Of a stretch of DNA of 39,987 nucleotides, positions 1 to 39,688 are shown piece after piece. The position numbers and the translations under genes were made by a program. A model generated the notes under the pieces. It had not been told where the DNA came from. It ran no database searches and saw only the letters and a program-made list of their open reading frames with translations. Every line of letters starts with the position of its first letter. The first letter of the stretch is position 1. The stretch comes from Spirogloea muscicola (taxonomy: Eukaryota > Streptophyta > Zygnematophyceae > Spirogloeales > Spirogloeaceae): contig WELB01000146.1 of the NCBI GenBank assembly GCA_009602725.1, positions 63,660 to 103,646 of the forward strand, read 5' to 3'.

Positions 1-160
1 CTCCCTCCTCCCCCTCCCTCCTCCGCTCCCCCCTTCCGTGCGCACCTCGTGCCCTCGATTGTTACGTGCTGACTCGTTGTTACTGAGCGGGTCAGCTTAG
101 CAGCAGGTGATGAACATCTGTCAACGTGCTTGCCTTTGTACTTGGCCACTCGGGCCCTCC
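1..160 (+). mobile_element. 3' end of a decayed retroelement copy
   Basis: The window opens with a pyrimidine-rich stretch (1-50). After a TACTGAGCGGGTCA segment near 80 comes a tail (GTGCCTTTGTACTTGGCCA type) that closely matches the sequence after the stop codon of the copy ending at 36290, and more loosely 1004-1090. I read it as the 3' untranslated end of an element whose body lies outside the window. It is a fossil and too short to classify further. Confidence 0.5.
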
Positions 161-230
161 ATCACTCGATACACACTCCACTCCATGGCTGTCGTGAGGA
201 CGAGCTCGTTCCGCGAGGAAACTAAGAATG

Positions 231-1095
231 AAGGCTCTTCCAGTAGAGGGCGATGGCTGTGCTTGGCCAGCACAAAATGAAAGAATGAAGAAGAATATCG
301 GTGGAGCACACGAGGGACGGACAGCTATTCCTGAAGGCCGCAATGGCTGTGAAGGCCAGCCCAACGATATGAAGGCTGGCTTTCACAGTCGCTCCTTGCG
401 ATCAGCAGGAGCATCGTCCCTTGGAATGAAGTCAAGCAGCCATTGTAAAAGGGGCAATACCTGTGTCGCGGTTGTCACGGAAGCTTACAGAGGCCCAGCA
501 TCGACATGCTTTGCTGGCCATGTGACAATGAAGCGGCTGCTTAAGTCAAGCCAGAGTGCATACAGCAACTTTTGATGCTTCTGTGTTCACAGCATGCGAA
601 GCTGCCGGCTGGGCCCTCAAGGTCGCGCGTTGGGCAGTGCAGGAAATGGATAACGCAGCACCAGTTTGACTACCCCCGCAATGATCACCTCCTTCCAGCT
701 GCAGTTGACGCCTGGTATTGCATATAGGTCCTCATTTCCAAACTCTGCTTGAGACTGTTGCCAACCTAGGGTATGCATGTTGTGAGAGTGTGGCTTCCGG
801 TCAGGATGGGCTTGCCGGCAGCCATGCTGTCAATCTTGCACAGAACGACCACACTGCTGTGTGTCAGTCTGTCTGCAGTGGGCCCATGCTCTACTCAGGC
901 TATCTGCCCGGAAAGCTGGACAAGCTTTAGTTCGTGGCAGAGGGACCTCGCAACCTGCAGTCCAGCATTTGGGCATCGACTAGCGACCTTCACCTGCTGA
1001 CCAGCGCCTACTGAACGGGACCGCATAGCAGCAGGCGGCTTGCGTCTGTACATGTGCTTGCCCTTTCTTGTTGGCCGTTCTGGCTCTCCATCTCA
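231..1095 (+). mobile_element. Degenerate retroelement copy with C-terminal domain remnant
   Basis: Segments line up in order with the better preserved copy at 35.7-36.4 kb. They are a GGCTGGCTTTCACAG stretch (372-395), a VVTEAYRGPAST-like coding stretch (about 470-515), a DYPRNDHLLPAAVD-like stretch (about 668-712), and the 3' tail after about 1004. Two GGCTGTG...CCAGC hairpin modules lie at 240-275 and 348-362. No reverse transcriptase is present, so the copy is 5'-truncated. It is broken and old. The family is placed by resemblance to the C-terminal part of retroelement ORFs seen in algal and animal genomes; the class (LINE or other) is not settled. Confidence 0.55.
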
Positions 1096-1314
1096 CACAC
1101 CTTTTTCGTCCATAGCCGCCCTCGCCAACAAGGTCCGAGCTCCTGATCGCCACGCCCCTAACTTCGTGCCACTCTTGAGCCCTTGGCTCTGAGTTCGTCT
1201 GAACATACGTGGGCGCCCACATCAAGGGCCCCCACCTTCACTTCACCGTCGTTCACTTCAACGTCGAGTCCGCGGCGGCGGCAGCAAAGCCAGACCCTGA
1301 ACTTCGGTTTCGCA

Positions 1315-2584
1315 ATGACGCCGGCGGGCGATGCGGTGCTGGCCGGGAGCGCGGGCCAGGGCCTGTGGCTCGCCTCGTGGGCGCGCTACCTCGTGGGCGC
1401 CCGCCTCGCGCCGTTCGTCCCGACCCCGCACCACGTCGCCGCTGCCATGCTCGCGCTCGCCGCCGTCGGCCCCGGCGACGCCGTCCTCGACCTCGGCTGC
1501 GGCGACGGCCGCCTCCTCATTGCCGGTGTAAACCCAAAACCCAGCACCGTAAACCGTAAACTCTCATTGCCGCACTGCTGGCCGCAGCGAGGAGCCTTTG
1601 CTGAGCTTCTCTCGTCAGTGACCAATCGCTGAACGCCTGCGGTGGCGGGGGTGGCGGCAGCTGCGAAGCTGCACGGCTCGCGGGGCCACGGCGTGGAGCT
1701 CGACCCTAAGCTCCTGGCGGCAGCCCAGAAGGCCGTCTCGCAGCAGGGCCTGGGCGATGCCGTCACGCTCTCGCTCCAGGACGCCGAGCGTGCCGACCTC
1801 TCCACAGCCTCCGTTGGTGAGAGCCCTCCACCATCGCTGTAGCTGACTGTTGGCCACTAGATATTAGGGTTTTGGGTTGGGGTTTAGGGTTTAGGATTTA
1901 GGGTTTAGGGTAGGGTTAAGGGCTTAGGCTTCGTCTTTGTCGTCTAACGGCTGGCAATGGGGTGTGCCCTGGGGGCAGTGACGCTGTACCTGAGCGAGCG
2001 CGGTAACCGGCGGCTCCTCCCCCGCTTGCGCCAGCAGGTCTCACACCCCTTGACTCTACCTCACTGGAAGCTTTGTAACCTGGACTCGCAGCCCAGCTTC
2101 CCCCACACCCGGCCGGCAGGCCAAATCCTCCTGCTGAACCCTATAACCTAACCCCTAAACCCCTAAATCTTAAACCCCTAATCCCCTAAACTCGAAAACC
2201 TAAAACCAATGTAAAGCTATGCCTGCGCATTCCCAGCTTTCAACGGGAAGCAGCAGCATCGAGTGCCAGCCAGATTGAGTCGTGGATCCTGCACTTACTC
2301 CATCTGGGGCTTGACAAACGTTTGGTGAAGCAAGGCCTGTGGCCTGCGTGGCCAACTACGCATCTGAGTGGCGGTGCCAGCAACCCTAGCGACCCTGCGT
2401 CCTATCTCACTGCAGCTACTTAACTCTCACTGCAACGACCATGTCGCAGTTGCGCCTTGAGGCGAGGGTGGTGTCCTTCTGCTGGAGCTTTGGCAACGAC
2501 GTTGTGCCCTCAGCCGTGCGGCATGTCGATGGTATCCCCCTCTATTTGTATACCGCCCAGGCCCTCCGAGCGCCTCCGCTGTGA
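1315..2584 (+). CDS. FAM173/ATPSCKMT-like SAM-dependent methyltransferase
   Basis: Spliced exons 1315-1525, 1661-1816, 1979-2037 and 2450-2584 give 186 residues with the frame intact. The N-terminal half has a PFVPTPHHVAAAMLALA segment, then the SAM-binding motif DLGCGDGRLLIAAAK (about residues 58-72), the acidic GVELDP loop, and a VVTLYLSERGNRRLLPRL strand-helix. It ends with ARVVSFCWSFG and IPLYLYT strands. This order is that of the FAM173 lysine methyltransferases, whose animal members (ATPSCKMT, FAM173A) modify mitochondrial ATP synthase subunit c and the ADP/ATP carrier. The substrate here is unknown. The ATG at 1315 is the first in frame; the frame is open upstream without another ATG. 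Introns 2 and 3 carry telomere-like repeats. It converges on the phytochrome gene ending at 3578. Confidence 0.82.
1861..1928 (+). repeat. Telomere-like TTTAGGG repeats in methyltransferase intron 2
   Basis: Degenerate G-strand repeats (GGGTTTAGGG, GGATTTAGGG, GGGTAGGG) fill most of the intron between exons 2 and 3. The unit matches the plant-type telomere TTTAGGG with substitutions and spacing errors, so this is an interstitial telomeric sequence, not a chromosome end. Confidence 0.8.
2136..2212 (+). repeat. Telomere-like CCCTAAA repeats in methyltransferase intron 3
   Basis: C-strand repeats (CCCCTAAACCCCTAAA, then CTTAAACCCC and CCCCTAAACTC variants) lie in the intron after the 59-nt exon 3. 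The orientation is opposite to the block in intron 2, so the two blocks are complementary in the pre-mRNA. Confidence 0.8.
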
Positions 2585-3577
2585 AGACCGATGTCACAGT
2601 GGATTTTGTGTCGTGAGCGACCCTAAGAAATCAAGCCTGAGTATGTACGGGAGTTCCACAATGGGGCAACGTCAGCTAGTGCAGGTAAGCACACAGTTAC
2701 TTACGGGCCTACATTCACAATTGCGAATTGCCTGGATTCTGCTTGCCAGCTGCCTCCAACCTGCTGGAGATGCACTGCTTGCTGTGAACATTACAGAGGG
2801 TGACATGACACTGATCACCTGGAGATTCAGAGATTGCCAGTTCCAGGTACAAGTAACTACATGCATAGCAAATGCACGCTCTTACTTGTGCAAGGCTACG
2901 GTTGCTTGTAGTGAGGCTAATTCAAGTTGTGCTGTTGTGGCCTCCTTTGAAAACATTGAATCAACGACTTCGCCCATCAACTTGGCTGTCAAGCCGCCCG
3001 CCCGCGCCCTGGGCGGGCCACTTGCTCGTCAAGCAGCTAGCGGCCTTGTAGCTTGGCGATTTAGAAAGTGCGCAATGGTAACCATACTTATCACAGCTCC
3101 GTGCTGCTATTAGTGCCAAAAGACAACTGGCGGTGTGCAATTTAAGCAAGATCAGCGAGGCTTGCTGACCACGTAGCCTACTTCAGATGCAGTAAGTTTG
3201 AGCTGTAAAGAGCTGTGTGGACTTGAATGACTGGATCTCTGGAGCTGGTGTTGCACCTGGCACGTGGCCCCCTTCACCTGCTCCGAGTATTGTAAGAAGA
3301 AGAAGAGGGTGAGAGGAACTAGAGCAAGCACTGGTCTTATAATGCTGATTCCCGCTGCTGAAGCACCGAAGGACATATACACATCCGCATGCCTTGAGAG
3401 TGGAGCACCGTATACGACAGAGTTCCAAGCTCAGCTTGCCAGAGGTAGCAAGGACAACCAGCACCAATTTGCACTACCACAGTAGTCACACGGGAGACGA
3501 AGCTCCAGAATGAAACAAGAGGGAACGCAACCCACGACTGCACATCACCTAAGTCCCATGGGGCTCGGGGACCCTGC
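2585..3577. other. Convergent intergenic spacer
   Basis: This is the gap between the methyltransferase stop and the stop of PhyL, presumably holding both 3' untranslated regions. A 218-codon open frame on the plus strand (2457-3113) overlaps methyltransferase exon 4 out of frame and resembles nothing. A perfect 8-bp GC hairpin (GCCCGCCC / GGGCGGGC, 7-nt loop) sits at 2996-3018. I see no gene. Confidence 0.6.
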
Positions 3578-6500
3578 TTAATCAACAGGCGGGCTTGGTA
3601 AGGAGGGAGGCGTGAAGGCATGCGTGGCAGCAATGAGTGCGCTCCTCGTTGCAGCACGCAGCGTCTCGCCAAGCGTGCTGAGACGCGGCGCAGAGCCCCA
3701 CTGCGTGAGCGACCCCAGCAGCCGGTTGCCATTGTGAGGGTCGAGGAGGTGTATTTGCAGGAGCACGGCGGCCTCCTTGGCCTCCACAACCTCACGTACC
3801 ACTTGCACGGCCACCCTCCCGCCATAGATCGCCTCCAGGTGCCGCAGTGCATTGTGCGCGGCAACATCCGCCACTGAGGCCGCCTCCGCTAGCCTCAAGT
3901 CGCTTGCCTCTCCGTGCTGAGCTGCTTGTGGCTGCTCCCACTGTCTGTCTTGGTAATTGACTGCCGGAGTATATGAAGTGCCTGCCTCTTGGTCGCTCTC
4001 CACCCCACCGAGGCGTTCCGACACCGTCACTAGCGGCGATCTGGTTTCAGCAGCTGCAGACGAGCCAACTGCCGGCTCCTCGCTCACCTCCGCCAGCTCC
4101 CGGGCATGCAGCATTGTGGGGCCCATCACTGGCGCCACACGAAGCTCCTCCTTGGAGCTCCACTCACCCACATTCGTGTATATGACGCCGCGCTTGCTGC
4201 TCTCCAGCTCCGCGGCATCCTTACTGAGGAGCGCTGTTGAGAGCGTGCTCGTCGACGTGGGCGCCAGTTGTAGGGGAAGCTCCAGGTCGAGCGAGAAGCA
4301 CGAGCCGACACCCAGTCGAGACTCGCAGGTCACCTTGCCACCCATGAGGCGAGCAAGCTTGTGACAGACAACGAGCCCCAAACCGCTCATGCCAAACGAC
4401 CTCCTGCATGCAACAGGCATGGAAATGATCAACAGGCAATGCAAGAAGAGACATGCACTTAGCCTTGCATGCTCAGCAACAGAGACTCCCTTGATCATCA
4501 CACCAATCATGCTGCCATTGCACCTCCTCCATGAGAGGAGTTGGCTTCCTTAACACGGCACGTACCGATTGTTTGGATGATCCACTGGTGGCTGTTCTGG
4601 CACCTGGAAAATGTTTTCCTGCTGTTCAGCTGACATTCCCTTGCCAGAGTCTGAGACTTTGATGAGGAATCTGAAGCTGCCTGGCTTCTGTGGCTCAGCT
4701 GCCTGGAGCTTGATCTCCACCCACCCGTGAGTCGTGTAATCTACTGCGTTCCTTGCAAAGTTGGCAATGATTTGCTGCACGCGGAGGCCATCGCCTTTGA
4801 CGCAGATGTTGGCGCACGCTGGGTCCATGACGCAGTACAGCTGAAGTCCCTTCTCAAACGCGGCAAAGGCCTCCTGTGCAGACGAGGAAGGCGGAAAGTC
4901 ACCAACCAACTCGTGAGTTACCTAATAGGCAAGGATACGTTGAACTCCACCACTTCTACGGCACAACAAGCGCAAGCTTGATCAGATGCCACTGACCTGC
5001 GCAAGGACCGCCTCCAGGACTTCCTCTAGAAGGAACTCGAGCTCGTCAAACTCCAGTTTTCCTTCCTCTATCTTGCTCAGATCTAGCACGTCGTCTACCA
5101 CTTGCCGCAGATACTTTCTGGTGACCCAGAGGAGCTGGGTTAAGGAGATGGCTGAATAAGACAGCATCCAAGATGCACAAAAATCTACTCACAAGAGTTG
5201 CAAGCCAATGAATGTGAAAACTTTCTCTGTACTTTTCTGCATACCCGCAAGTAGCAGTAGTAAGAACAAGATCTCGCTGCTCAGAAGTCATATTGGTGTC
5301 TTCCATGAAGCTGATGCTGCTCAATATGCCATTGAGAGGATTGCGTATCTGTAAAGACAGGAAGCTGTTGACATGAGATTTTGCTGCCCATCTTGGATAC
5401 TCAACCTGGGATTGGCTATTAGGAGCATGCATGTTGCATGTCAAGAAGTAGCTATCGCTTAGGTGACCAATTTGCAACTGGACTGATGGGCACTGCCTTG
5501 AAGACATAACATGCACCTGACAGGCTTCTGTTTACAGAACACCAAATAAAGCTATGAGATATGGATGGTGTAAAGGGTAGACAAGTTGCGATGTCGTACT
5601 TCATGACAGAGGCAGGCTAGCTGCATCGTCTTTGCCTGTGATGCAGCCTCAGCAACTATTCTGACAGCGGAGGCATTCTCGGCTGCCCTTCTCTCCAACA
5701 TGTCTTGCATGAAGCACGTGGCTCCAACAGGCTCCCCATTCTCTCCTTTCCTGTTGCAAGCAAGGCAACAAAGCTTAATAAAGACGCAAGTCACTAGTAT
5801 GACATTACCTTTGCTGATGGGGAGAGTGTGAAATTCAAAGTACTGTTTGTGCACGTCTACAATGTATTGTAGCTTCATGCACCCACATGATACAATTTAT
5901 GACACTTCATGCACACCTCAACCGTCCTGCTGACCATGTCCAGACAAACAGCACGCAGCCGTCAAGACCTAGGGTCTCAGGTACCTGCTAATGATGTGCA
6001 TCAGTGTGTCCATCTGCTTCCCGTCTCGAGTTTGAAAGTGAAACTCATGATTGCGTGAATCCTGTCCATGCAGAGCCTGGCATAGGCCAATTTCGAAGCT
6101 CACAAGCGAGTCCTGCCAGAAAGTGAAAACAGTCTCATCAGTCTGCTAATACTGATCTGCCGAGTCACTATAGGTTGGGCCTCGTGCAACTGTAGCATGT
6201 GGATGTCAAGTCCTGTACCACCTGCATTGTCACACTGTAGTCGTACCTCTGCCTCTCTAAACAAGCCCAACATCACCAAATTCCTGGAAGGACTTGAGGT
6301 ATTGTCGATCATGCTTAAGACTTACTGGTTCTGGCACCATGATCATGGGGGAGCTGCTAAGAACTTCCCCCACTAGACGTTTGCCCAGGACTTCATCCCG
6401 CCTCAAGCCACTTATCTTCTCCATACTCGCATTCCACTCACAAACGCGCCAGGTCTCATCAATTGCAAACACTAGCATGTCAGCCTGGTCCAACAGCGAG

Positions 6501-9500
6501 CTCGTTTCCTCCAGCCCCACAGTAACCTGTTAACGCACCAAGTATTAGTTCCAAGTCAAGTCCTTAAGAGAGAAAGTGACCCACAGCCCGGGACAGACCC
6601 AGAATACTGGCAGGAATATTAGTGCATGGAACACTAATACAAGCTGGGTAGGTACGTAAGGACTAACGTTGCCCGCAAGGAGCTTGATGGTACTGATATC
6701 CTGGCCCACCATACGAACACCAAGCAGGTTACCATGAACATCATGGTGACCATAGAAGGTACTCAGAAGGTGCAGCTTCCGGTCAAGTGGTCCGTTTTCC
6801 TTGGTGCAAGCCTGAAGGCACAGATCCACTGGCTCTACTTCGACTCCTTCGATCACCTTGTTCAAGGCTATCTTGAAGTCATCTCTTGACTCTTCACAGA
6901 GTACCGCATCGAGAAACTTGTGTCCTACTACATTTTCCTGCACTCGCAAGTAAAAGTAGAAGAATAAGTTGGCAGGTGTACGCAGGCAATGGCCAAGCTT
7001 TAGCTTGGGATTTACCACATCACAACTGTAACAGTTCAGCGCTTGGACTGCGATTTACCCACCACTTGCGCGCAACAGCACATATATCACGAGCATTGTA
7101 CCTTGCTGCGCTTGGTCAACTCTGACGCCTTCATGTTCCATTCCAAGACTTCCCCAGCTCCTGAGAGGCCAATGATGGGAGTCTTTGCAGTCTCCATTTC
7201 AGTCTGGAGATTGCGAGCCACATCCAACAGCTGCTTCTGAACCTTCAAACGCTCCTGATTCAATCTTGTCTGCAAATAACGTCATCAAGTGTTCAAATCA
7301 AGAGTGCCTACATATATCTGCTTCACAAATCTCTGACTTGCTCCATAGCTGGGGCTAATATACAGGTGCTTCCTGTCCCTGCTGGAAGGCTGAAGCAATG
7401 GACGAGTGAAGCAACTATCTCATTGATATATACAAAATTAAGGTGCTATTAAATATCGCATCTGTGCTAAGGACACTAAGGAGGTCTTCTTATGATGTTG
7501 ATTAATGCCTAGGTTTTTGCTCAACACTGGCCAGTCACACTTGCTAGATGTCAGATCAGTACACACCTGAATTTTCAATCGGAGATCATTCACAGCAGGA
7601 TCAGGAAGAGAGTCCCGTACAATCAGCTTGAGACCTTGCATTGCATCAACCTGCACTATGAAGGTTACAATCTTGTCTTAGTCATAGCACCTCACTACTG
7701 GAATGACCACTGGAATGACCACTTCCTGCATAGTGCTCAATAGTTGGCTGACCTCACTGTCCTCCCATGGAGAGCTCTGCTGGCCTGCAACCTCCAAGAA
7801 TGCATCAAAAGATAGACGGGGGTGCATATTTGCGCCCTCCTTGACTTTGTGGGAAGCCTTGTCTCCAGCCCACTTGATGGTCTTGGTGATGCCTGGACAA
7901 AGTGGAGATGCTGCCCGTAAGCACCAACTTATAGCACGTCCATGTGCTGCAAACCCTTATGCTCATCAAGGCATGAAGTTCAAGGAGGTATTGTGATGAT
8001 TTGTCCGTGCAGTCTATTCTGCATAAGGTGCATACAAGCTTACCAGTGCGGAACCACATGAGAAAGTCCCCTTTTCCTGAGATTGGAGTGGCAGCAAGTC
8101 CACAGACAGCAGGAGCTATCTCTAAGGCACGTGGGTATCCAGCTACTTCAAGGCTGCTGCTCACAAAGACACTGTCCTCTGGCGCCTTCATATCTGTCAT
8201 CCACTTGGCCAAATCCAGGATCTGCAATGCCACACATTGCTTATGATATGAGAATATGGTATGCACATAACAACAAAGACATTTGCACAGTGAAGTCACT
8301 CTGGGGAAAAAGCAATGACCCTAGCAGCCAAGCAGGAAGTCTTTGAAACGATAGATGCCAACCTGTTCTTCACTTGGAGCAGAGCCAAGAGGGTAGACCT
8401 TGCCAGCATGGATAAGAGCTGCTCCATCAGCTGGGACCTGACAATGGAAGGTCAATTGCAGCAAGCTTTATCAAACCCGTCAACAAAACTCAGATCAAAG
8501 GTTCCTCTTTTGAATGCATGGGAGTATACTCATAGCCATGACACGATGGACTACTCACCAAGTCAAGAATGTTGGGCTTTTGTTTGATAAGACCAAGCGG
8601 AGCGTCTCTAGTAAGCATCCCACAAAGGACTGCCTGCGTCTGAGTAATTCGCTTATCTTTCACATCCTCGGCTGACTCAATTTCCGTTGTTAACTTCAAA
8701 GCAAATGCCTGCACGCAATTGTAATGAAGGGGGAGAAACATTATTGTATATGAAGAAAGATCCAACCACAATTGGACAAGTCCATCAGCACCATGTTGTT
8801 GATTGACTACCTACACTTAACTGCTGCACACAGATCAGCTAGATGATGCAGTCTTGAAATTATGAGGGGCCTGCTCATCACTTTCCCCTGCTTCTATAAG
8901 AAGAAGGCATCATAGCACGATGTAGTGCAAACAAGGTGGTCTCTCGGCATGTAGACATGCATACCTGAATGATGAAGTCACAGGCATACCGCTGAGGGTA
9001 CGGCAAGACACGCTTGCCAGAGTGGTGGTGGCAAACAACAAGGCCCCAAAGCTTCGGCGATCGCGTCTGAGCAACATTGACGACCACTGCCATAACCAGC
9101 GAGGCTTGGCAACCCATGTTCTTCGAGTACTCCTTGTGGCAGCCAGCAACTCCTGAGCTCGCCATCCAGAGGTCAGTTTAATGCGTCAAATTGGATGCAC
9201 TTGAGCTGGATACACAAGTAACCAGTTTAATTTTGTTATTTTATGCCCTCATTGTACTCTCATTGTGTGGCTGGTAATGACAGCTAGCAACATGCAGAAC
9301 ACAGAGTATGCCAGCCAAGACTTGAGTACATCATTGCAACCTCGCATAGTAGATCGTGATAAGATGATGGGCTTCTCCAAGGAAGGGTGTTGTATGATGT
9401 CAATATTAACGCCGTCCATGTCTGAGATGAGCCGTAAGCGCACTTGTACAAACATCTCCCTTGCTGCCTACAAAAGCATCCAAACAGACCTTGCTTAAAG

Positions 9501-12500
9501 TCAAAATGCAGCAAGACAAGGGCACCCATACAGCTGCAAGAAGCAAATTGAAGCTGTGCGCACGTGTACACACAAACAGCAGCTTACAGCAACTGTACAG
9601 CATCTGCAAGATTCAACCACTCACAGCAACATCAAGTGTTTGAGGCCTTACCTGGGGCACATCATTTGCAGGGTAATGAAGACCAAGCAGAGTAGGTAGC
9701 CAGTCTTCCATAGCATCGGCAATGACCTACGGGACATACTTTGTACATCAAGGAGGTAAGGACTCGTACACAAATACGCGACAAAAGGCATAGCTTCGGC
9801 TTGTAACCTAGCAAAACTGCATTGTGCAGCGCGTCAGGGACAACACAATGAGCGCAACCATCTCAAACTTCAACTTGTTCTACACATTACAGGCAGGGGA
9901 GAATATCTAGAAGGGCAATGGCACCTCTCCATGCTGATCCTCGTGGAACTTGTACACCATGACTCTATCATAAGCAGAGAGGGCCTTTATTTCCTGGTTC
10001 ACAATGTACAGTTGCCAAATGCATAAGGCGCTTACGACGGCAGACATATGTTGGAATGAAGTACAGCAGCTGTGGCAGTATCGCTATAGAGGCTACTCAG
10101 CAATGCTGGACACCTTGCAAACTTCTTATCAATGGAAAGCTTCACATTCTCTAGGCTTAAGCTCCAAGGCTGCAAGGCTGCAAGACTTCAAATTCAAGGC
10201 TTTGAGTCGTCAAGGCTACAAAGCTTCAGGCTTCAAGGCTTCAAGGCTTCAAGGCTTCAAGGCTTCAAGGCTTCAAGGTTTCAAAGCTTAAGGCTTCAAA
10301 GCTTAGAGGCTTCAAGGCTTCAAGGCTTCGAGGCTTCGAGGCTTCGAGGCTTCGAGGCTTCGAGGCTTCGAGGCTTCGAGGCTTCGAGGCTTCGAGGCTA
10401 CAAGGCTTAAGGCTTAGGGCTTCCAGATCTCAAGGCTTCAAAGGTCAAAGCCTTCGAGGCTTTTTTGCAATACTTGGTCACCGACAAAGGCTGTAATGAG
10501 CACCTTAGCAACCGTTTCAGCCAAGTCGCTAATCTCAGCAGAAGACATAGCCTGCAATTTTGCGATGCTGGCACTCGCCCTGTCGTGTTTCTCCAGAGCT
10601 CTTTCCTCCATCTCGTTTGCCTCTGTCACAGCTCAAAAGAGATTAGCAGTGTAAGCAACTCCCGTTGCTTGTCTGACATGTACCTCAAACTGTTGTCTGC
10701 CTCTGCCTGCACTGTCCACCTTATGAGTATATCATCAATTTCATTCCTTCTACTTCATCGGGACTTGTTGTCCACATGAAGGAGAAAGACATGAAACCAG
10801 CAGAGGCAGTCAGCAGTAATTTCCATACCTTCTGCTGCAATTGGCTCAAGATCAATGACAACACCTTCTTGCAACCTATGCATTATAGCATAGATTGGCC
10901 GCCCTGAAGCATAAATGAGCAGCAACAAGTAACCAAACAACATTTAGTAAGTAAACTTGAATGCTCCAGCCCGAAGGGGCATACAGGCTGTAGCTTTGCA
11001 ACGAGCATGTCAGACCTCTGCGTGAGCAGACATTCATATATGGTGCTACTCAATTGTCCAAACCAAGGCTGTCAAGAGCTCACGTGCTTTTGCCGTCCTG
11101 ACGACCAATGGATTTGCTATACTGATATCATCGTAGGTGAAAGCCGTCTCAAAGGCATTTGGTGACTGAAGACAAGCACACATGTGAAGCTCAGTACACA
11201 TTTATGTATATTAAAGGACCAATGAGCGGCAGCAAGCATCGGCAAGCTTGCTTGTGCTAGTGGTGATGGAGTCAAGCCTGAGAAGGAAACCCATGCCACG
11301 TAGTACCTTCGCACCAATGATGCAGAACATGGCAGCCATGTTAGAAAGGGTACAGATTTGATAGTGCTGGCAAGAAGAGGCAGAATGCTTACATCACTGA
11401 TCAGGAAGGATCGAACGTCCCGGCCCAGCAGCGCCTGCACTGGCTGACCTTCAAACTCCTCATCCACGTAGTGCCACACATTTTCAGCTGCAGCTAAGAT
11501 CTGCATGGTTGCCAGTTGCAACAGCATTACAGCCCTAAGAGGCGTGTAATTGTTGTAGTGCATTTATGCAAGACTTAGAGGCCTTATGTTTACAGAATTC
11601 CAAGCCCTTCAGCAAATCCATTACTGTGCCACTGTCTGTGTGAAAAATCTATAGGTGCTGCAATAAATAAACAGGGACGCTGCTAAGCTATTTGATGATC
11701 TTTTCAGTACTCTTCAGTACTCTTCAGTCCTCTTACTCAGACTTTCAGTTCACGTCTTCGATGCCAGCTAGCAAGACATACTGGATGCCACAGTTGTCGA
11801 CGGCCTGTCTGTCACCTAGACATGCACTGGAGATGCAACAATCATGTGTGCTGAAGATTACCGCAACCGAATTGGGAGTGCCAACCTACTGTGCATCCCA
11901 TTTCCAAGTCGAAGCCTGAACAAAGGCAGAGCTGTGACCTGAAACTGCTCGTTGACCATTAGCAGAGTGCCGTGAGGCTGGATGAAGCCAGGGCGCTGCA
12001 TGTGCTGCAAATAAGCAGCCACGTCGACCTCCGTTGCAGCATCTGGTAGGTCCTCCATGTGCCTGCTCGACTCCTGAACGCGATTTCTGACTGGCATCTG
12101 CAGTAGGAAAAGGAGCAAAGGCCTCTCCTGCTCATTTCAGACTATGTACGAGGGTCATGCCCACAACTTCACCAATAGCCACGTGCCTGGGACCATCTAC
12201 CACATCTCAGAGCACGCACTCTGTAAGTCTGTCAATTTATTACAGACGACACAGTCTGTATACTGTGACAGGACCATTTCCTGGAGCTGCACAGGACCTC
12301 TGGCTGAGATGATGCCTGTGCAGCATGCCATCGGCACTTGCTGCCCTCTTTCTGTGGAACAGTGTCACGATGCTGCACACTTACTGCTAAGCCGCTGCAT
12401 TCCATCTACCCTCCTCAGAAAACAGTCTGAAAAGAGCTCGACTGTTTCAATCGCGCAAGCAAATTGCCCTTCTAAAATGGACCACACTTGAGCAGGTGCC

Positions 12501-13001
12501 AAAGGCCGCCTTCAGGCCCTGCCTCACACAGCCCAGGATTGCACAAGTGGAGCACTGCTCGCGTCCACTTTGACGCTGAGCTCCCTTTGGCTGCTCAATC
12601 TCCCCCACCCAAAAAGCAGTAGCACCAGTAGCAGCAGTAGCACCGATCACGCCCCGGGGATCAGTCGATTATCGATCAAAATCTCAGGCCTTGGGGCAAG
12701 CAGTAGGTGTGAAATCGTCGAGAGTCGGAAATGTCGTCGTCTACGCGTGGACGCGAGCAGAAGTGGATAGCCGAACGACCAGGAGAAGGCCAGCAAACGA
12801 GAGGCTGGGAAGGTAGGGGAGAGAGCAAGGCTTGAGGCGCGCACCCTCCATGAGTGCTGCACGAGGCGCGACTGCTGCACCACCTGGCCCTTGTAGTCGA
12901 AGCTGCGAGGCGTGCCGGCGCGCGAGTGCGCCTCGTAGTCCGAGTCCAGGCGCGCGTCGGTAGCCGCCTGCGCCCCGGAGAAGTTCTTCTTGTACCGCGC
13001 G

Positions 13002-13032
<31 letters not shown>

Positions 13033-13072
13033 TGNGCGGCGGCGGCGGCGCGCGCAGGCCGGGCCGCGTCAT
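3578..13072 (-). CDS. PHY: Phytochrome PhyL (PAS-GAF-PHY-PAS-PAS-His kinase, extended C-terminus)
   Basis: Exons: 13072-12845, 12097-11939, 11500-11393, 11165-11084, 10903-10829, 10622-10504, 9993-9925, 9726-9652, 9467-9341, 9152-8965, 8708-8559, 8437-8363, 8221-8044, 7892-7753, 7650-7567, 7269-7102, 6937-6668, 6526-6326, 6112-5985, 5750-5600, 5348-5245, 5117-4997, 4921-4566, 4403-3578. They sum to 4182 nt (1393 aa) with no frame break. An N-terminal extension with the SFDYKGQV phytochrome signature is followed by PAS (about 82-215), GAF (218-415), PHY (411-600), two PAS domains (640-890), HisKA (about 905-1000) and HATPase (1040-1163). Key residues are Cys352 in GCHKEY (bilin thioether), D302 in NDVPQ, PRLSF in the PHY tongue (569-573), H924 in HEIRNPL, N1058 in NFARNAV, D1091 in DSGKG, and SGLGL. 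No receiver domain follows; a 230-residue tail does. Expected role: red/far-red sensing histidine kinase. The start exon contains an N, so the N-terminal glycine run may be misread. Confidence 0.92.
10148..10440. repeat. 8-bp minisatellite in PhyL intron 6
   Basis: A tandem array with period 8 lies in the intron between exons 6 and 7. The upstream block (about 10200-10320) is mostly CAAGGCTT; the next block (about 10320-10400) is homogenised to CGAGGCTT, with degenerate edges. Several frames stay open through the array only because the unit lacks stop codons. PhyR has no matching array in the same intron. Confidence 0.9.
13004..13055. repeat. GCC/CGG run with an N in PhyL exon 1
   Basis: A (CCG)n run turns into a (GCGGC)n run at the single N (13035), so the two sides are nearly inverted copies. 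On the minus strand it reads as a short proline run, then a glycine run just after the PhyL start codon. The turn at the N suggests an unresolved fold-back or gap of unknown size. Confidence 0.75.
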
Positions 13073-17203: not shown

Positions 17204-20200
17204 TCAGCTGGGTGGCTTGAGGGGCCAGAAGGGCGGCGCCGTGGGGCTCACGACCTGCGCAGCCTGAAGCTGCTCTGGCGCACTCCACTCGCCAATAGTG
17301 GTGTGGATGACGCCCTCCTGCTCGATCAGCGCATCGCTGGAGTTGTGGACCTCTGCTCCTGGAGGTGCGAGTGGCAGCTCAAGGTCAAGGGAGAAGCTTG
17401 AGCCGTGCCCCTCTCGGGACACGAATGAGAGGCTGCCACCCATTATATCGGCGAGGTTCTTGCAGACCCCCAGGCCAAGCCCCGGGCTAGAGCCCCTGTT
17501 GTCACAAGGCATCACATATAAACATCAGCATAGGTAGCTGCCTACACTCGCAGATGGTGACATTCCCAGAACAGGTCGGCAACAGAATGCTGATTATGTA
17601 CAATAGCTAGCATGAAATACAGTCTGTTGACTATAAGAAGTAGCTCTCGAACCGCAGGCATATATTGCTCATTCACTGAGGTTGTTTGGATCAGCCAGCC
17701 ACTGTGAGCAAGCAATGAGCATGCTGCAATGCTATAAGTGAAAGCAGGGCCGTTGTCAAGTCCAGCGTATGACAAAGCTGCATAGAAGCGCTGCACCAGC
17801 ACGCACCTGGCTCCGATTGGCCGGTCTTGCGGCTGCATCTCGAAGGTGTCGTTAAGCCGCTGCATAGACATGCCCTTGCCAGAGTCGGAGACCTTGAAGA
17901 TGAATCTGAACGTCCCTTCCTTGGAGGGGGCCGCTGCCTTCAGCTTGATCTCCACCCAGCCTACTGCTGTGCTCTCCACGGCATTCCTCGCGAAGTTTGC
18001 CACAACCTGCTTTACTCTGAGGCTGTCCCCGGTGACTATGGCACTGTCGCAGGCAGGGTCCTGTGTGCCATACAGCTTCAGCCCCCGCTCCAGTGCATGA
18101 GATGACTCCTGTGAGTCCACAACGAGCAGAGGTCAGAAAAAGCTGTCCACTGCAGCCCATGCAGCGGCATCTATCCCTCCATCGACTATTGTTGGGCAAG
18201 GACGGCTGACATCAATTACATGCAGACATATCTGGTAGAACCAACTTGCCCAATGTCAACATATCATGCAGCTGGTATTGGGTAACCCACTCCTCAATCG
18301 TGTGACTGCACCCTCAGTAGATTGGAGGACTGTCACCTGAGCTAATATCTCACTCATGACTTGAGTCAGCATGAAATATTCAGTAAGAAGTTCAAGTCGT
18401 CCCTCTCGGATGAGGCTTGCTTTTAGCATGTTCTGGACAACTCCTTGCAGAAACTCCCTGCAGAGGAATGGAGAGCAGGATTATCGAATATTGTGGAAAG
18501 CGCTGGAAAGGCTGACACCCTTCATGGCAGACTGTTAGACTCCTGATATAACACCATATATGTACAGCTGAACCCTTTCCCCATCAATGAGGGACAAGAC
18601 AAGTCAAGGCATGCTTTGACTCCAAGACAAATTGCCTTTATTCAGATAGCGGAAGACAGCTTGCAAGTCACTACTTACCCGCATACTGAAGTAGTAGCCA
18701 CCAGTTCCCGCTGCTGTCGTGTCATCTCTGTGTCCTCCATGTACTTGATGCTCTTTAAGATTCCATCGAGAGGGCTACTAATCTGCACTTGCACTTTCAA
18801 TAATGCGATGAGATTGTCTACCGCTACAGTCAACGCTATCCACTCCCAGGTTCTTTGGCAAGTATTCTGAGGAAAGCCTGCAATATTGCATTCAGGAAGC
18901 TATTATTCAGGAAGGGGCAATACCTCATGGCAGAGACACGCCAGCTGCATAGTCTTCGCATGTGATGCAGCCTCGCCAACGATCCGCACAGCTGTTGCAT
19001 TCTCGGCTGTCCTCCTCTCCACCATGTCTTGCAAGAAGCAGACTGCTCCTACTGGTACCCAGCTCGTGTCCATTCTAAGTTTGTTCCAAGTAGCATACAA
19101 GATAAGTGATATTAAGGCTCAACAGTCAAGTAACCATTAGTAGGTATTTGGACATAAGTGGCGTGAAAGTCATGACTACGTTTGGATAGCCAAGCAGATC
19201 TGCCCCTGCAATAAGAGCAATGCCCCTAGATGCGTGAAATACCTGGAGATGACATGCAAGAGAGTGTCCATTTGTTGGCCATCCATGGTGCGGAAGCGGA
19301 ACTCGTGGTTCCGGAGGTCACGACCTTGCAGGGCTTGGCCAAGTCCAATGTCAAACAAAACGAGGGCATCCTCCTGAAGTAAGGATAGCAAGCAATGTCA
19401 TCCTAAGTACGATCACAAAGGCGCCACAATGTTTCGGGAGTATACCCAACCACAATTGTGACGGCAGCCAACCTAAGACCAACATCAGCACCAGACATGT
19501 GACTGTGATCATATTCGTACATTTATCATGTCAGAAACCCGTATGTCCCATTTGCATGCACAAAAGGGAATCACGGACATGACATGAGCTAATCAGAAGC
19601 AAAGCTTGACTACGGTAACGGGAGAGGCAGTACGGTAGACTGTGCAGACCGGGTCCATGATCATGGGGTTGCCCTTCAGCACGTCACGTATCAGGTGCTT
19701 CCCCAACACATTGTCCTTGCCGATGTCCAGCACCTCCTCCATGTGCCTGTTCCACTGCGTTATGTTCCAGTCCTTGTCTATCCCAAAGGCCAGCATGTCT
19801 GTCTCGTCCAGCCATCGCCCCAACTCGGGGCCTGCCAGCTGGGCCTACGGAGCACTACTAAACAAAGTCAGCCCATGTAAACTGCCCCAATTCTATTAGA
19901 GATGGATGGGAAATGCAATTAAAAGATCAACTGCAGAGCCAAAATATTGCATGTGAATGCTGGGCCCTTGGTCCTGTCTGCTTGGGGCAAGAGTACCTCT
20001 CTGGAGAGGAGCTTGATGAGGCTGATGTCCTGGCCCACCATCCGTATGCCCACCAGCTTGCCATGCATGTCGTGTTGGCCATACAGCGACATGAGGAGGT
20101 ACAGGCGGCGTCCATCACCTGCTTTCAGGCACAGGTCAACGGGTTCCAGCTCATCGCCAGCTGACACAGCCTCGAGGGCACGTCGGAAGTCCTCATGAGA

Positions 20201-23200
20201 CTCCTCTGCAATGACAGACGAAAAGGGCTTCCCCATGACAGCACCCTACAATGCAGCAACATCATCATGCGTCAATAGGAAGGTATGAGCAGAGAAGGTG
20301 AATGCAGAATGTAAAGCATCAACTTAAAGCTTGGAAGTTTAAGATGAGCAGCTGATGAGGCATTTTCTACGGCAGGGGGCTACTTAAGTATATCAAAGGC
20401 TGGTCAAGTAGAGACTGCCTCATGTGCAACAGACTGGTTTGCTTCAGCTCACAGCTTCTAGCAGTTGACTGATTCTAGCAGCCAGGGTACTGTGATGGGT
20501 CAGTTGCTCTGACCTAAGTCATGCATGTTAAGGTGCTCAAATCTTCACATATCTGGACAGTGAGTGCTATCACAGCTTGCTACCTTGTCAAGTTGCATAA
20601 GCTTGCTTGCGCGAGTATTCCACTCGTACACATTGCAACTTCCAGAGAGTCCAATGACTGGTGTTCTGGCGCCTTCCATTCCAGAGTGGAGTTTCCTTGA
20701 GACTTCAATGAGCTGCCGCTGGACCTTCAGACGCTCGTTGTTGAGATGGGTCTGCAGATCAAGAGAGCAGTCAGGCACGAAGTGAATAAGTTGAAAACTG
20801 TCCAGAAACTTGACCCAAAGTGGCTTCTGTATTCTGCACTTCTTGACACTACATCCTCTCAAGCTGTCTCTCAAGCTTGTCTGAGGGCGGCCAGGCATCT
20901 ACCAGGCAAGGAGCAGGATCGAGAAAATGATTGCCACACAAAGCACCGCTCTCATACTAGGTGACTGAACTCATACAAGTTGAGAGATGCAGATTTGACT
21001 GCTCATAGATGGTCTGAAGGGACTGGTGGATGTGTAAAGGAACACGTTCCTTCAGGTAGTGATGCCTGCCTGGTCAACATACAAGGTGACTCCAATGGAA
21101 TACCTGAATCTTAAATCGAATAGCATACAAGTCTGGGTTCTCCGGCAGCGAGTCCTTTACAAGCAGCCTCAGCATTTGCATCATCTCAATCTGCTCCATG
21201 AAAGCTTCAATTTTATGATCAGTGGTGCAATGTGACATGCTGGGAGCTTCTCTTGCTTAATGTTGGCTTCCCCAGCATCTTCGCAACCTACCCACTCAAA
21301 GGATCCAGCTGAATCTTCTTGCCACATCAGTTGTGCGCACCGGGTGCATAGTGACATATACCTCTGGATCCTCCCACGCAGGACTTTGCTGGCGGGCTAT
21401 CTCATAATATGCGTCAAAGGAGTAGCGAGGGTGGAGATTGACGCCATCAGGCGGAGCGTGTGTAGACTTGTCGCCAGCCCATTTGATAGTCTGGGCAATA
21501 CCTGTGCGTATGCACAAGGCAAATTTTTAAGTTGCTAGGTAGGTGAGTATGGGAACCTACGAATAACTGCGAGCAGATGGTGAGATGATGTCATCAACAC
21601 TAAGCCCTCAGCTTTGACTTGGTGTACCCCTAGCCCTCATAGCCTATTTGCAGATGTGGATCTAGAATTTCATAGCCTTGTGTGAACTCAGGACCACGTG
21701 TAGGGACGACGACAACTGGGAAAATGAGCATTACCACTCCGAAACCACATGATCAGGTCCCCTTCTCTGTTGACGAGAGCAACAGCAAGGCCGCAGACGT
21801 TAGGCCCGAGGGCTGCAGCTCCAGGGTACCCTGCGCCCTCCAGGCTGTTTGTCACGTAGACTCCCTCTTCGACATCGTCCTTCTCCAGCAGCCATTTGGC
21901 GAGGTCGGCAATCTGATACGCCAAGCCCCATGAAGCTTAGCAGGGGTTGTAAAGCAGGGGTTATGGAGGTCGCCGTATTGGCAAATGTTGATTGATAAGA
22001 GCCTGAGGCAAGCAAGGGCAAGATCCTGACCTCTGACTCGCTAGGCGCCGTCCCACGCACAATGACCTGCCCTTTACAGATGAGAGCGGCACCCTCACAT
22101 GGGACCTGTGAGCCGAAAGTGGGATGGTTGGAACCCACAACACTTACATGATGACAAGGAAGGGCAAGCATATGCCTGTTGCTGTTCTTAAATACGATAT
22201 TGTATCAAAGCCAAGCCTGCTAAATGCAATCCCAGCTCTCTTAACTTTACAGTACTTGTGCTTAGATTTCCAACTCAGTGCATCTGACAATAAGTCAGCG
22301 CTCACAAGGTCATGGACGCCAGGGCTCTGAGTGATGATCCCAAGCGGAGCGTATCTTGTGAGCATGCTGCACAGCATGGCCCTTGTGTGCATCTCCCCCT
22401 TCTGCTGCGCCTCTTCACTCGCCTCAATGTCCATTGCTAGCTGCAGAGCGAATGCCTGCAGAAACAGTTGCCTTGCCTTTAGCAACAACAGATTTGTTGC
22501 AGTGGGTTGCCTACTATGCAATAGCACATACAGATGCCCCCCATTCCCGAACCCTGCCTGCCTCCCTCCCTCTCCCTCCCTCCAAGTCATACTGACTTGC
22601 AGGGTAGCACCTGCCAGCAGTAAGTATATGCAGGTGCTGCAAGAACCTAATTGCAGCAACACAAGAGCTTATCTAAAATATAATCATCTAAGCCTGCGGT
22701 GACCTCAATGTGCCTTGTGATGACAAACTCAAACCAAAGGCAGCGCCCCGACAATCCCGCCAAAATCACGATGCAAGTTGAAAAAAGCCTGATGAGTACC
22801 TCCTTAATGAGATCACAGGCATAGCGTTGAGGATAGGGGACCATCTTAGGGCCGTTTTGATGATGGCAGACCACCAGACCCCACAATCTTGCAATTCTGG
22901 CGTGGCCAATCGTAACGACTATGGCCATGACCAGGGTTCCCGAGCACTTCAGGTTCTTGGAGTACTCTTTGTGGCAGCCAGACACTCCTGCTTGCAGGAG
23001 TGGGAGTACTTGGTTAGCATCACGAATAGCATAACATTTGCACAAAGAAAAGGGCAAGCTGCTACTTACTGAGGCTTGCTTCAAGCTCAATGATATATTG
23101 GTACTCAAGCTAATACGCTTTGTACTGACTCTGTTCCAGTCAAGTCAAAGGGGTGACATTGCTTCCAGAAGCCATGAGGGTCGCACCTCGGAGAGTGGAT

Positions 23201-25688
23201 GCAGTGAGAATCATTGGCTGCGGCAATGAGGGGTCCTGGATGATGTCCACGTTGGGAGCTTCGTTATCCACGATGAGTCTCAAACGCACCTTGACATATG
23301 CCTCCCTTGTAGCCTGCCACACTCATCCAACAGTATAGGGCACTGATCACGGGTCAGCTTCATTACTGCGAATGTAGCTGCATCTACTGCTGCCAAGTAC
23401 AAGATGGCCTCCAGTGTCTTTGAGTATTGGTCCATCTCACGGCTGTGTTGACCAACAGGCGAGTCAGACGGTGTTGTCGCTTGTGCAGCAAACGGGAAAC
23501 TGCTCACTTGGGGAACATCATTGGCTGGAAAATGTAGACCTAAGAACGGCTCCAGGAAATCCTCCTTGAACTCAGAGATGACCTGTTCCAGCAAAGAAGG
23601 CGTTATTACCTCGTCCAAGTGCACTTTGGCTCTTGCAGGCATTTTGTTGCTGTTTGCGAGGAACTTGCAAGACACTGCAGGACGACCTTATGCTATATAT
23701 GCAGAACAAGGACATTACCTCTCCGTGCTGGTCCTCATGAAACCTATAGACCATCACCCTTTCATACCCCGTGAGCGACTTCACCTCCTGTAGAAGCAAA
23801 GCCAGTGCCAAAAGGCGCCACGCATGTAACCTTTAGAAGCTTGCCTTGCTCGAAAACCTGCAAGTGACTCTGTCTCGAGGAGCCTGACAAGGACCACATT
23901 AAGTCAACGTGGAATGAGCTGTTAACCTCCACTATCCTGAGCACAGGTACAAGCGGACACCGGAGGAAATTTACTTGTGCTACTGTGTCAGCAAGCTTCT
24001 GCAGCTCGCCAGGTGCGGTTTGCTGGAGCTTGGTGATACTGGCACTGGCCAGTCCGTGCTTCTCAATTGCACCAGCTTCAAGCTGACCAAGTTCTGCATA
24101 CTCCAGAGAGAACTTCAATCAGGCAGACGTTATAGGGTAACATACAAGTAGCAATGCATTGTAGGCCCCCAAGCTGCGTGTTGTCGTCACTGCTTGCCTC
24201 CTTCAAAGGGCTTGCAAGCTACAATGGTCAAGGATACGGTAAGACCTTCTGGTAAAATTGGCTCGAAGTCAATGACAACTCCTTCTGTTGTCCTGTGGAT
24301 GATGGCATACAATGGTCTTTCTGCACAGTGGGAGGTCAACGAGGTCGTAGCAATGTGAGGTCATTACAGTTACGCACTTAAAATAGGGTGTTGAAATGGC
24401 CCGATGTTTGGTAACAATGCAGCCTGCGTGTCAGTGGCTAACTTGCCGCGCCAGGGCTGCAAGACTATTGCCTGCTCATATGACTTGCAGAGCTGTGCCT
24501 GCGACCCATGCAGAGGCTGTCTACTCACTGTGCAGTGTTGCAGCAACCAAACAGAAGGCCAATACTAGTACGCAAAGCACGCACTTGACTTGGCGGTGGC
24601 CACTTGAAGCGGGTTGACTATGTTCAGGTCTGGAAACGTGAAGGCTCGCCTTAGCAGTTCCGCACTCTGCGGACCCGCCGCCTGAAGGTAAGCATTGAGA
24701 CTATACGCCAAAGGAGAGAGAGTGAAAGCTAGAAATTAGTTTTTTGGTTGAATGTGTCAGTGTATGGGCAGACGACTACTGGTGCCTTATGCCTTGCACC
24801 TTTGGCTCCAACAGGTTCCGAAAGTCTCTGCCAAGCAAGTCATGTGCGTCGACGTCCTCCTCATGGTCCATGAAGTCGTAAATGTTCTTTGCCAGCGCGA
24901 GAATCTGCACATCCGAGGAACTCTCAGGGGCTGTCATTGTCCCCTCTGCACGGCTTGTCGTTCTTTCTGTCTGTCGCGCTCGCAAGCCACATGCGAAACG
25001 TGCTCCGTGAGCTGCTGCAGGGTGACGAAAGCTGCAGCTCTGACATGGGCACGATGGTTAGAAGGGCTGCCAGTTGGACCTTATACTTCTTCGCGTGGAC
25101 CAGCAGGAGGGTCCCAAACCCCTGGATGTAGCCTGGCCGGTGGGCGTGCTGCAGGTAGGCGTGCACATCCGCGCCGTACACTGTGACAGGCGTGTGCTCC
25201 ACCTCCTTCTCCTTGTCGCCGTCCTCTGTGATGACCTAGACGCAGGCACCAGCAGACGAGCTCGACAATCAGCTCACAGGTCGTGGTTGGACACAGTCTG
25301 TGATCACATCAGTGCCAGTGTGCACATGCCTGTCTCTGTGCTTGCGAGCTGCTAAAGTTCGCCTGCCGCGGCTGTGACCAGCAGCTGCAGTTCCCTGCCA
25401 GTGCGGGCTGCATAGCAATGCTCCTGGGGACAAGTGCAAGCTGCTATATGATGAGTGCAACTAGCACTGTGATGCCCACGTCGAAAAGAAGGGTTGTCAC
25501 CAGCTTGACGTCGTTGAGCTCACCTTCCAAGCATTCTGCATGAGCCGGGTCTGCTTCACAGCATGGTACGGGCTGCCGCTTTTGGAGTGCTTGGCCACCC
25601 AGATGGAGGCGTCGACCTCGTCCTGAGGCCGCGCGTAGTTCCTGTGGAAGGTGTACGGGCCGACATTGACCATCACGCCACCGTCCAT
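17204..25688 (-). CDS. PHY: Phytochrome PhyR (PAS-GAF-PHY-PAS-PAS-His kinase)
   Basis: Exons: 25688-25524, 25235-25080, 24904-24800, 24681-24585, 24320-24246, 24093-23975, 23787-23719, 23582-23508, 23313-23187, 22987-22800, 22455-22306, 22105-22031, 21912-21735, 21501-21362, 21190-21104, 20751-20584, 20245-19997, 19844-19650, 19373-19243, 19074-18924, 18782-18679, 18457-18337, 18108-17807, 17495-17204. They sum to 3519 nt (1172 aa), a usual phytochrome length, with the frame intact. Domain order matches PhyL. Key residues are Cys334 in GCHKEY (bilin), NDVPQ in GAF, PRYSF in the PHY tongue, H899 in HEISSPL, N1017 in NFARNAV, D1050 in DSGKG, and GLGLG. The tail after the kinase is about 55 residues and holds the GEWS motif shared with PhyL. 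The ATG at 25688 is the first in frame; the frame is open upstream to an N at 25831, so a longer N-terminus is possible. Expected role: red/far-red photoreceptor kinase. Confidence 0.92.
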
Positions 25689-38088: not shown

Positions 38089-39688
38089 TCAGCTTGAGGA
38101 GCGACTGCCCTCTATCTCCGGCTGCACCTGCAGCACAACATGGCCATCGTGCTGCTCAACCTGGGTGGCTTGCTCGGCTGGCTGTCTGGGTTGCGCGGTT
38201 CCTACAGCCGAGGTGCACTCTTGGCTAGAATCGACTTCTTCCTGTGCTGGGCAAGCGCCCGCCGCTGGCCGTGGGCTGTCCAGGACCTTGGATGTGAGGA
38301 GTGACGTGCGGCAAATGGGGCACGTAGTGTGGTGCTCCAGCCAGGCATCAATGCACTCAACATGGAACACGTGCCGGCACGCTGGCAGTTGCCGAAGCTG
38401 CTCTGACGGCTGGTAGTCGCTCAGGCACACGGGGCACCTGCAGACATACGACCAGTCATATCAGGTTTCGCTTATCGTCAGGCTTGGCAAGAGCAAGTGG
38501 CAAGAAGCTTGCTCTACAGGTGCTAAGGCAGGCAGTTGATGTCAGCACTTGCTCTTGACTACCTAAGCTTGTTTTGGTGACCAACCCCAGCTTTACTGAC
38601 AAGCTGAGAAGCCTCTGCAGAGCAAGACAGTGGGCCCGAAGACACCAGAGACAGAAACATCATGTAGCATATTCAAGTGTCTGGACTGAGACCAAGCGTG
38701 CACAATATACTCGCCCACATTCGTTCTCCTTTGTCACACCCCTGATTTTGTGAGGAAACGTCCATGCGCCTGACACTTTGCATTGATCAAACTCCTGCTT
38801 TTGCCGCTTGATGTGCCTGCGACTGGCAGACTGTGTCCACCCTCCTTCTAATCTGCTAGTCCTCTAGGCTTCCCAGAGTGCCAAAGATCCAAAGAAAGTT
38901 CCGTCCTTTGTGTGGGAGCAGATGACTTATGAAGGAGCGACTCAACACTTGCCAGCCCTGCAAGACGTGGCACAGTGAAAGGCCCTAAAATTGCCAGCAT
39001 CACTCACTGGGGCTCCTCAACGGTCGCTGCAGGTGCTTTAGCAGCCGTCATGATGGGGAAGGACTCGGTGATGGCGCGGTCGAGCCCGTGGCTCCGTGGT
39101 TGCTGCAAGGAGTCAAAATCATGTCAGAAAGTCAGAAACATTCAGTGCAGCCTCCCTGCTGGTTGCAGCTTAGACATGTCACACTTCGTATCAGCAATAT
39201 CAGCAGAATTGGCCCTGTGCGTAAGAATCTATGATTTCCAACTACATGCCTCTGAAGCAAGTAAGCCAAGTCAGTGAAAGTCAGCCGAAGTCAACCCAAG
39301 TTCCGGAACGTCAAGGCCGTCTCCAGAGCTTCAGATAACCATGGCAACCCGCTAGCACATGCCTGGTGTCGCCGGCAGCCGGCAGAGGGCGCCGGCGCTC
39401 GGACAAGCGCTGCAGGCAAGTCTTGCAAGCTGAGAGGAGTAGTACCTGGCTAGCGGCCTGGCCCACCATGATGCTGATGGCGCGCGAGCGGGCGAAGCGG
39501 CGGCGGAAGCGCTGCCGCCGCTTGATGTAGAGGACGCAGAGGAGGATGAGGAGGATGAAGGTGAAGACGATGGGCGTGAGGAAGATGAGGCCCTGGTACA
39601 GCTGCAGCGCGCGCACTGTGCAGCCGTCGCCGCTGCCGTCCGCGGAGCAGCCGGACGCCGCCGGCGGCGGCTGGGAGCCAGTGGACAT
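38089..39688 (-). CDS. ATL-type membrane RING-H2 E3 ubiquitin ligase
   Basis: Exons 39688-39446, 39102-39008 and 38437-38089 join in frame to 228 residues. A single transmembrane helix (about residues 32-53, LIFLTPIVFTFILLILLCVL) is followed by a basic stop-transfer stretch (YIKRRQRFRRRFARSR), then the GLD signature SHGLDRAITESFPIM (about 85-99). The RING-H2 finger has Cys114, Cys117, Cys133, His135, His138, Cys141, Cys152 and Cys155, with Trp145 in IDAWL. This order (TM, GLD, RING-H2) defines the plant ATL family, which ubiquitinates targets at membranes. The C-terminal 70 residues are low-complexity. The ATG at 39688 gives a standard ATL protein, but the frame is open upstream into the trihelix-like segment without a stop. 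Confidence 0.88.

Follow-up and report, generated by a model that had tools for sequence, protein, structure and literature searches.

The window, that is, the whole stretch of 39,987 nucleotides that was analysed, corresponds to C146:63660-103646 of the 153 Mb assembly of Spirogloea muscicola and carries two phytochrome genes, PhyL and PhyR, arranged head to tail and both on the minus strand. PhyL (3578..13072) was modelled by comparison of three copies as 25 coding exons for 1358 amino acids, with an uncertain start codon. Its tandem paralogue PhyR (17204..25688) has 24 exons, encodes 1182 amino acids and is 51% identical to PhyL. In addition, reading of the ORF list by eye pointed to a CPSF73-like nuclease (27676-30322, plus strand), a RING-H2 finger (38089-38460, minus strand) and a methyltransferase-like stretch (1312-1530, plus strand), and a PhyL intron contains a short tandem repeat (GAAGCCTC/CTTGAAGC type) at about 10180-10480.

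A PHY family scan of the assembly gave 21 matches at nine places. Contigs C48 and C72 each carry a further PhyL-PhyR pair like that of the window, whereas C16, C101 and C175 each have a single gene, the canonical phytochrome. The longest aligned blocks between copies show 86-91% identity, introns included. This threefold occurrence of the phytochrome loci fits what is expected after the whole-genome triplication cited for Spirogloea muscicola in an excerpt of PMC11547041.

Both gene models were obtained with a comparative exon finder applied across the three copies and were then curated; they supersede the first automatic models, in which the N-terminus was mis-joined and false exons of one or two bases appeared. 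From exon 2 onward all acceptors are AG and all donors GT in the three copies of each gene. Exon lengths agree among the copies of PhyR except for an in-frame difference of 9 bp in exon 2. Those of PhyL agree from exon 2 onward apart from 9 bp, again in frame, in the last exon; C72 departs further, by +1 in exon 13 and by -2 in exon 18, and this one of the three copies may be broken or misassembled. Exon 1 (12845..13072, minus strand) encodes an N-terminal extension with a glycine run and contains one unknown base. Its last 52 residues, from ARYKKNF onward, are identical in all three copies; before this point the copies differ over 219 columns, and stops interrupt the C48 and C72 copies, so that their start must lie further in or elsewhere. 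If PhyL were unexpressed or its exons wrongly joined, the two frame-changing differences of C72 and the closed upstream part of exon 1 in the C48 and C72 copies would be understandable. In C146 and C48, however, the frame stays open throughout exons 2-25, the splice sites are conserved and the sequence is under constraint, and we regard such an artefact as hardly credible.

The domain order of the spliced PhyL protein, namely N-terminal extension, PAS-GAF-PHY with the bilin cysteine, PAS-PAS, HisKA and HATPase_c, exceeds the Pfam cut-offs in full. Its photosensory part matches phytochrome B of the PDB (7rzw, presumably the Arabidopsis protein) over 504 of the 531 residues given (3-506; E 6e-130), with C352-H353, the DxP aspartate, LWGLVVCHH and PRxSF (as MHPRLSF) all kept. 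Specifically, exon 10 (8965..9152, minus strand) encodes the GAF segment with the bilin cysteine C352 (9139-9141) and H353, reading GCHKEYS in all three copies, and exon 14 (7720..7892, minus strand) the PHY tongue with PRLSF. Bilin binding by PhyL is expected from these features.

The kinase centre lies at the other end of the gene, and the original prediction that PhyL keeps it complete is borne out by the spliced model, in which the H, N, G1 and G2 boxes were all found on the minus strand. The H-box CHE/IRNPLNG is assembled across an intron whose donor and acceptor are the same in all three PhyL copies: exon 20 (5600..5750, minus strand) carries the linker and the first half of the box and ends with the H, the phospho-acceptor H935 (5603-5605) being followed by E936 (5600-5602), and exon 21 (5245..5348, minus strand) opens with IRNP, carrying the second half IRNPLNG, with N939 (5340-5342), and DHp helix 1. 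Neither exon length (151 and 104 bp) is a multiple of three, so that skipping of either would shift the frame. DHp helix 2 follows in exon 22 (4997..5117, minus strand), the N-box asparagine N1053 (4748-4750) and the G1 box DSGKG with D1086 (4649-4651) in exon 23 (4566..4873, minus strand), and the G2 box SGLGL (4373-4387), the end of HATPase_c and the start of a C-terminal extension in exon 24 (4088..4403, minus strand). Of the interval 4566-5750 to which the four motifs had been assigned, the H, N and G1 boxes hold their place and SGLGL falls outside. Similarly, the residues numbered H924, N1058 and D1091 in that prediction exist, but they become H935, N1053 and D1086 in the present model. 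The 16 residues by which the earlier distance from H to N was longer correspond to the stretch between two acceptors, 4921 and 4873; the shorter form of exon 23 is favoured by a one-base length difference in this stretch in both other copies and by the matching PhyR exon.

On the spliced protein the Pfam scores are 54.3 bits for HisKA (E 1.4e-14, cut-off 26.9) and 76.9 bits for HATPase_c (E 2e-21, cut-off 26.4). PhyL thus combines the four boxes with both family matches over cut-off, as is characteristic of HisKA-type kinases, and, given these domain scores and the H-box intron sites shared by three of three copies, its kinase motifs are not due to chance. Among Pfam matches up to E 0.5 there was no protein kinase domain, which a neochrome would carry, together with LOV domains, in a phototropin module fused behind the phytochrome.

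The kinase modules of PhyL, PhyR, the genome's own canonical phytochrome and phytochrome B (7rzw) were aligned with a histidine kinase chain (7z8n). In this order, the H site reads H, H, Q, Q, H, with E, E, E, V, E one position on and N, S, N, N, T four positions on, and the G1 aspartate site reads D, D, H, C, D. The N-box asparagine is present in PhyL, PhyR, the canonical protein and 7z8n, with S in phytochrome B. The PhyL module scores 124 bits against 7z8n and 103 bits against phytochrome B. An H-box of the form HExxN is the one which, in HisKA kinases, also permits phosphatase action. All three copies of the canonical gene read RQEIKNPLNG and THAGDG, with both the H and the G1 aspartate lost; the HisKA match of the canonical protein nevertheless reaches 49.2 bits, so that the family score alone would not reveal the loss of the H. 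The further statement that land-plant phytochromes generally lack the H-box histidine agrees with an excerpt of PMC4525182, as well as with the Q of phytochrome B and of the three canonical copies.

Conservation of the kinase centre was then assessed by counting changes between C146 and C48 and between C146 and C72, respectively, the C72 codons being projected through the alignment (1357 and 1355 of 1358 PhyL codons comparable). Over the 125 codons around the H-box (the DHp region), PhyL was free of replacement changes in both comparisons, whereas 18 and 19 silent ones were counted. The corresponding silent and replacement counts were 15 and 18 against 4 and 4 in the HATPase region, 25 and 22 against 4 and 6 in PHY, 23.5 and 23.5 against 8.5 and 6.5 in PAS-PAS, 20 and 21.5 against 13 and 19.5 in PAS-GAF, and 28 and 29 against 10 and 22 in the C-terminal extension, with a whole-gene dN/dS of 0.087 (versus C48) and 0.123 (versus C72, on projected codons). 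The DHp of PhyR showed 10 and 10 silent and 5 and 6 replacement changes and is therefore also constrained, less tightly than that of PhyL.

These data bear on the alternative that the kinase fold serves structure, dimer contact or signalling of a Ser/Thr type, as it does in canonical phytochromes, the histidine being present without a two-component output. The canonical protein does retain the fold without the H, and PhyR, with an H-box reading HEISSPLDG and its H, E, N and D in place, scores only 15.4 bits for HisKA, below the cut-off of 26.9; the motif set alone is thus no proof of function. PhyL, however, holds every catalytic motif together, including the G1 aspartate that the canonical protein has lost, and its DHp is free of replacement changes. 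Such a role without two-component output is conceivable, but in our judgement rather unlikely, and a light-regulated two-component output of PhyL appears likely from its sequence.

In order of similarity, the best 30 of the 78 HisKA matches of the genome, searched with the PhyL kinase module, were headed by three copies of a further gene (C16:661879, C123:134039 and C331:21247; 67% over 81 amino acids, best pieces 114-116 bits), all reading CHEIRNPLNG. The canonical phytochromes came next (70.5-70.9 bits), with other kinases close behind (68.2 bits). The PHY family scan had missed this third gene. In the C16 region (C16:653500-667600), the part upstream of the kinase module aligns in pieces with the GAF and PHY domains of PhyL and reads GVDDKQAEV where PhyL has GVAGCHKEY, that is, without a cysteine at that GAF site. 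Downstream, four open stretches with the receiver signatures VIDDEPVN, FDALLLDE, VPIIGISAN and VMGKPI were recognised by eye; a Pfam search that extended up to the first of them recognised no receiver. The third gene thus resembles PHYX1, its putative receiver being read by eye on the C16 copy only.

Two trees were built. The photosensory tree comprised 23 rows (three PhyL, three PhyR, one canonical phytochrome, phytochrome B and 15 bacterial phytochromes chosen from 80 loci) and separated the first eight rows from the bacteria (100/100), joining the canonical protein to phytochrome B (100/99) and PhyL to PhyR (100/99); PhyL and PhyR fall outside the canonical clade, which consists here of the own canonical protein and phytochrome B only. 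In the kinase-module tree of seven rows, in whose alignment the C16:661879 gene shares 50% of the PhyL module, the five phytochrome-type modules stand apart from two generic kinases (100/99), PhyL groups with PhyR (94/99) and the canonical pair is recovered (100/100); the order among PhyL with PhyR, the canonical pair and the third gene has a support of 35/0. End branches are 0.085 for PhyL, 0.097 for the canonical protein (behind an inner branch of 1.1), 0.41 for the third gene, 0.67 for PhyR and 0.93 for phytochrome B.

Could the histidine have been regained, or could PhyL have acquired its kinase module by a swap with a hybrid histidine kinase? The PhyL module is nearer to the generic kinase 7z8n (34.6% identity) than the phytochrome B module is (23.3%). 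Moreover, none of the kinase-module introns of PhyL coincides, by eye, with a position in the canonical gene, which made intron positions unhelpful as evidence of a shared descent of these two. Both points would suit a regain or a swap. The four kinase-module introns of PhyR, for their part, match those of PhyL in place. Against a regain or swap, PhyL and PhyR branch outside the canonical pair on the photosensory part, the phytochrome-type kinase modules are set apart from the generic ones even with their inner order so weakly supported, and the most similar modules among the best 30 of 78 matches are those of the third triplet and then of the canonical genes, though other kinases are close. 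We consider this origin very improbable, and retention of the histidine the better reading.

The original prediction had also noted that no receiver is attached to PhyL, and this holds for the last 200 amino acids (Pfam up to E 0.5) and, in a search with a 25-residue query from the start of the third gene's putative receiver, for window positions 1-3700, where it had no match. This C-terminal extension (3578-4370, minus strand; 200 amino acids; dN/dS 0.11 and 0.24) gave no Pfam match of any kind up to E 0.5; exon 25 (3578..3997, minus strand), which encodes extension sequence without a known domain, had no match among PDB sequences up to E 10. PhyR has no last exon resembling exon 25, and an 11-residue stretch of the extension resembles one of equal length in PhyR. 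A weak match of the extension on C3 (E 0.02, 29%) is interrupted by a stop and was dismissed as due to chance. In the C16 copy of the third gene, between kinase and receiver, 43 amino acids match the extension (42%, E 1e-5 pairwise), and the last 140 residues of PhyL score 33.1 bits against this gene, compared with at most 26.6 in 100 shuffles. The 43-residue match may indicate that an ancestor of PhyL carried a receiver.

With no receiver found in PhyL, the phosphate acceptor would be a separate protein, as had been predicted, and both HPt and receiver genes are indeed present elsewhere in the genome. Plant-type HPt exons with the motif HQLKGSSS were found on C241 and C252 (LQDESNPEFVTEVITLFFEDS and VDYKKVDSFVHQLKGSSS) and, two of them being joined by hand, match HPt protein 1 of the PDB (9h6e) at 1.4e-20. 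A pattern search of the genome gave five HPt matches, and both of the two that were read further are HPt-like; the Hpt family profile scan of the genome gave none, as would follow from a gene split by introns, which we think is the case. At least 51 receiver matches were counted, 51 of the 147 first-look candidates being scored, and for roughly 23 of them no HisKA match lies less than 10 kb away. Because the PF00072 and PF00512 scans treat each exon separately, domains divided between exons escape them, and their counts are lower bounds: the HisKA of PhyL is absent from the 78 HisKA matches and the putative receiver of the third gene from the 51 receiver matches. The sole receiver match on C146 (184679) lies about 108 kb from PhyL.

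All together, we think it quite probable that PhyL is a non-canonical, PHYX2-type phytochrome of streptophyte algae which has kept the ancestral histidine kinase and passes its phosphate to a separate receiver. In this mechanism, a bilin on C352 would sense red and far-red light, the light-induced change would travel via PHY and PAS-PAS to the DHp-CA module, and this module would phosphorylate H935 from ATP. The phosphate would then move to a receiver on another protein, either a separate response regulator or one reached by relay via a plant-type HPt; given the HExxN form, light might set the balance between kinase and phosphatase activity. The gene structure, the motifs, the constraint, the negative receiver searches in the gene and the HPt and receiver genes of the genome are direct observations, whereas bilin binding, kinase activity, light control, the partner and the retention rather than regain of the histidine are what we infer for PhyL. 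The observation from which the original prediction started is right, and its reading is probable.

A variant in which the pair is split, so that the light-sensing PhyL kinase phosphorylates in trans the receiver of the PHYX1-like protein, perhaps within mixed dimers, and PhyR with its diverged DHp acts as a partner that senses light, is suggested by a PhyL without receiver, a PHYX1-like protein with receiver signatures and no GAF cysteine, and the stretch that the two share between kinase and receiver; we hold it to be improbable. For the preferred reading of PhyL, the wider meaning is that land-plant phytochromes lost their histidine-kinase output, and that one genome, probably that of a streptophyte alga, holds an intact kinase form, its diverged tandem copy, a receiver-signature form without GAF cysteine and a histidine-less canonical form. 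With these four side by side, the ancestral kinase output becomes directly testable.

With regard to earlier work, our literature search found no paper on a streptophyte-algal phytochrome with histidine kinase and phosphorelay, and none besides Li et al. 2015 (PMC4525182) on a Zygnematophyceae phytochrome with a conserved histidine. On autophosphorylation of algal phytochromes it returned reviews, such as PMC10813442 (seen in excerpt), and the excerpt of the algal photoreceptor review PMC12558739 adds nothing further on PHYX. According to excerpts of the primary papers, PHYX1 and PHYX2 of Zygnematales and Coleochaetales retain the histidine (Li et al. 2015, PMC4525182) and form the sister lineage of plant phytochrome (Wang et al. 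2019, PMC7027972), the latter paper proposing that one duplicate lost both its receiver and its histidine.

Compared with these and other known systems, PhyL shares a histidine-bearing kinase domain with the phytochromes of glaucophytes and with those cryptophyte ones that have PAS-PAS, and PAS-PAS plus a histidine kinase domain with those of prasinophytes; unlike PhyL, most prasinophyte forms carry a fused receiver and the glaucophyte C-terminal part has one PAS (excerpt of PMC4525182). With canonical plant phytochromes it has in common the domain order, the N-terminal extension and the photosensory signature, whereas the canonical protein and phytochrome B have replaced the H and the G1 aspartate, and phytochrome B also E by V and N by S. 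PHYX1 keeps the histidine as PhyL does, but in the excerpts of PMC4525182 and PMC7027972 it is without the bilin cysteines of the PAS-GAF region and in some cases with a receiver, while in PhyL the GAF cysteine is present and the searches turned up no receiver. PHYX2 is described in the same excerpts as non-canonical, outside the canonical clade and with a conserved histidine, like PhyL; a receiver is not reported there for PHYX2 and none was found in PhyL. On its features (cysteine kept, no receiver) and on its place in a tree with two canonical proteins, PhyL seems to fit the PHYX2 type best, the comparison with PHYX2 being by description; it differs in its tandem pair, its three genome places and its 200-residue C-terminal extension. 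In conclusion, PhyL is not a new kind of phytochrome, retained-histidine forms of Zygnematales and Coleochaetales having been published in 2015 (excerpt of PMC4525182); the present analysis contributes a gene model, evidence of constraint around the H-box, a comparison with the canonical phytochrome within one genome, a tandem copy of diverged DHp and, as a possible partner, a PHYX1-like gene with receiver signatures.
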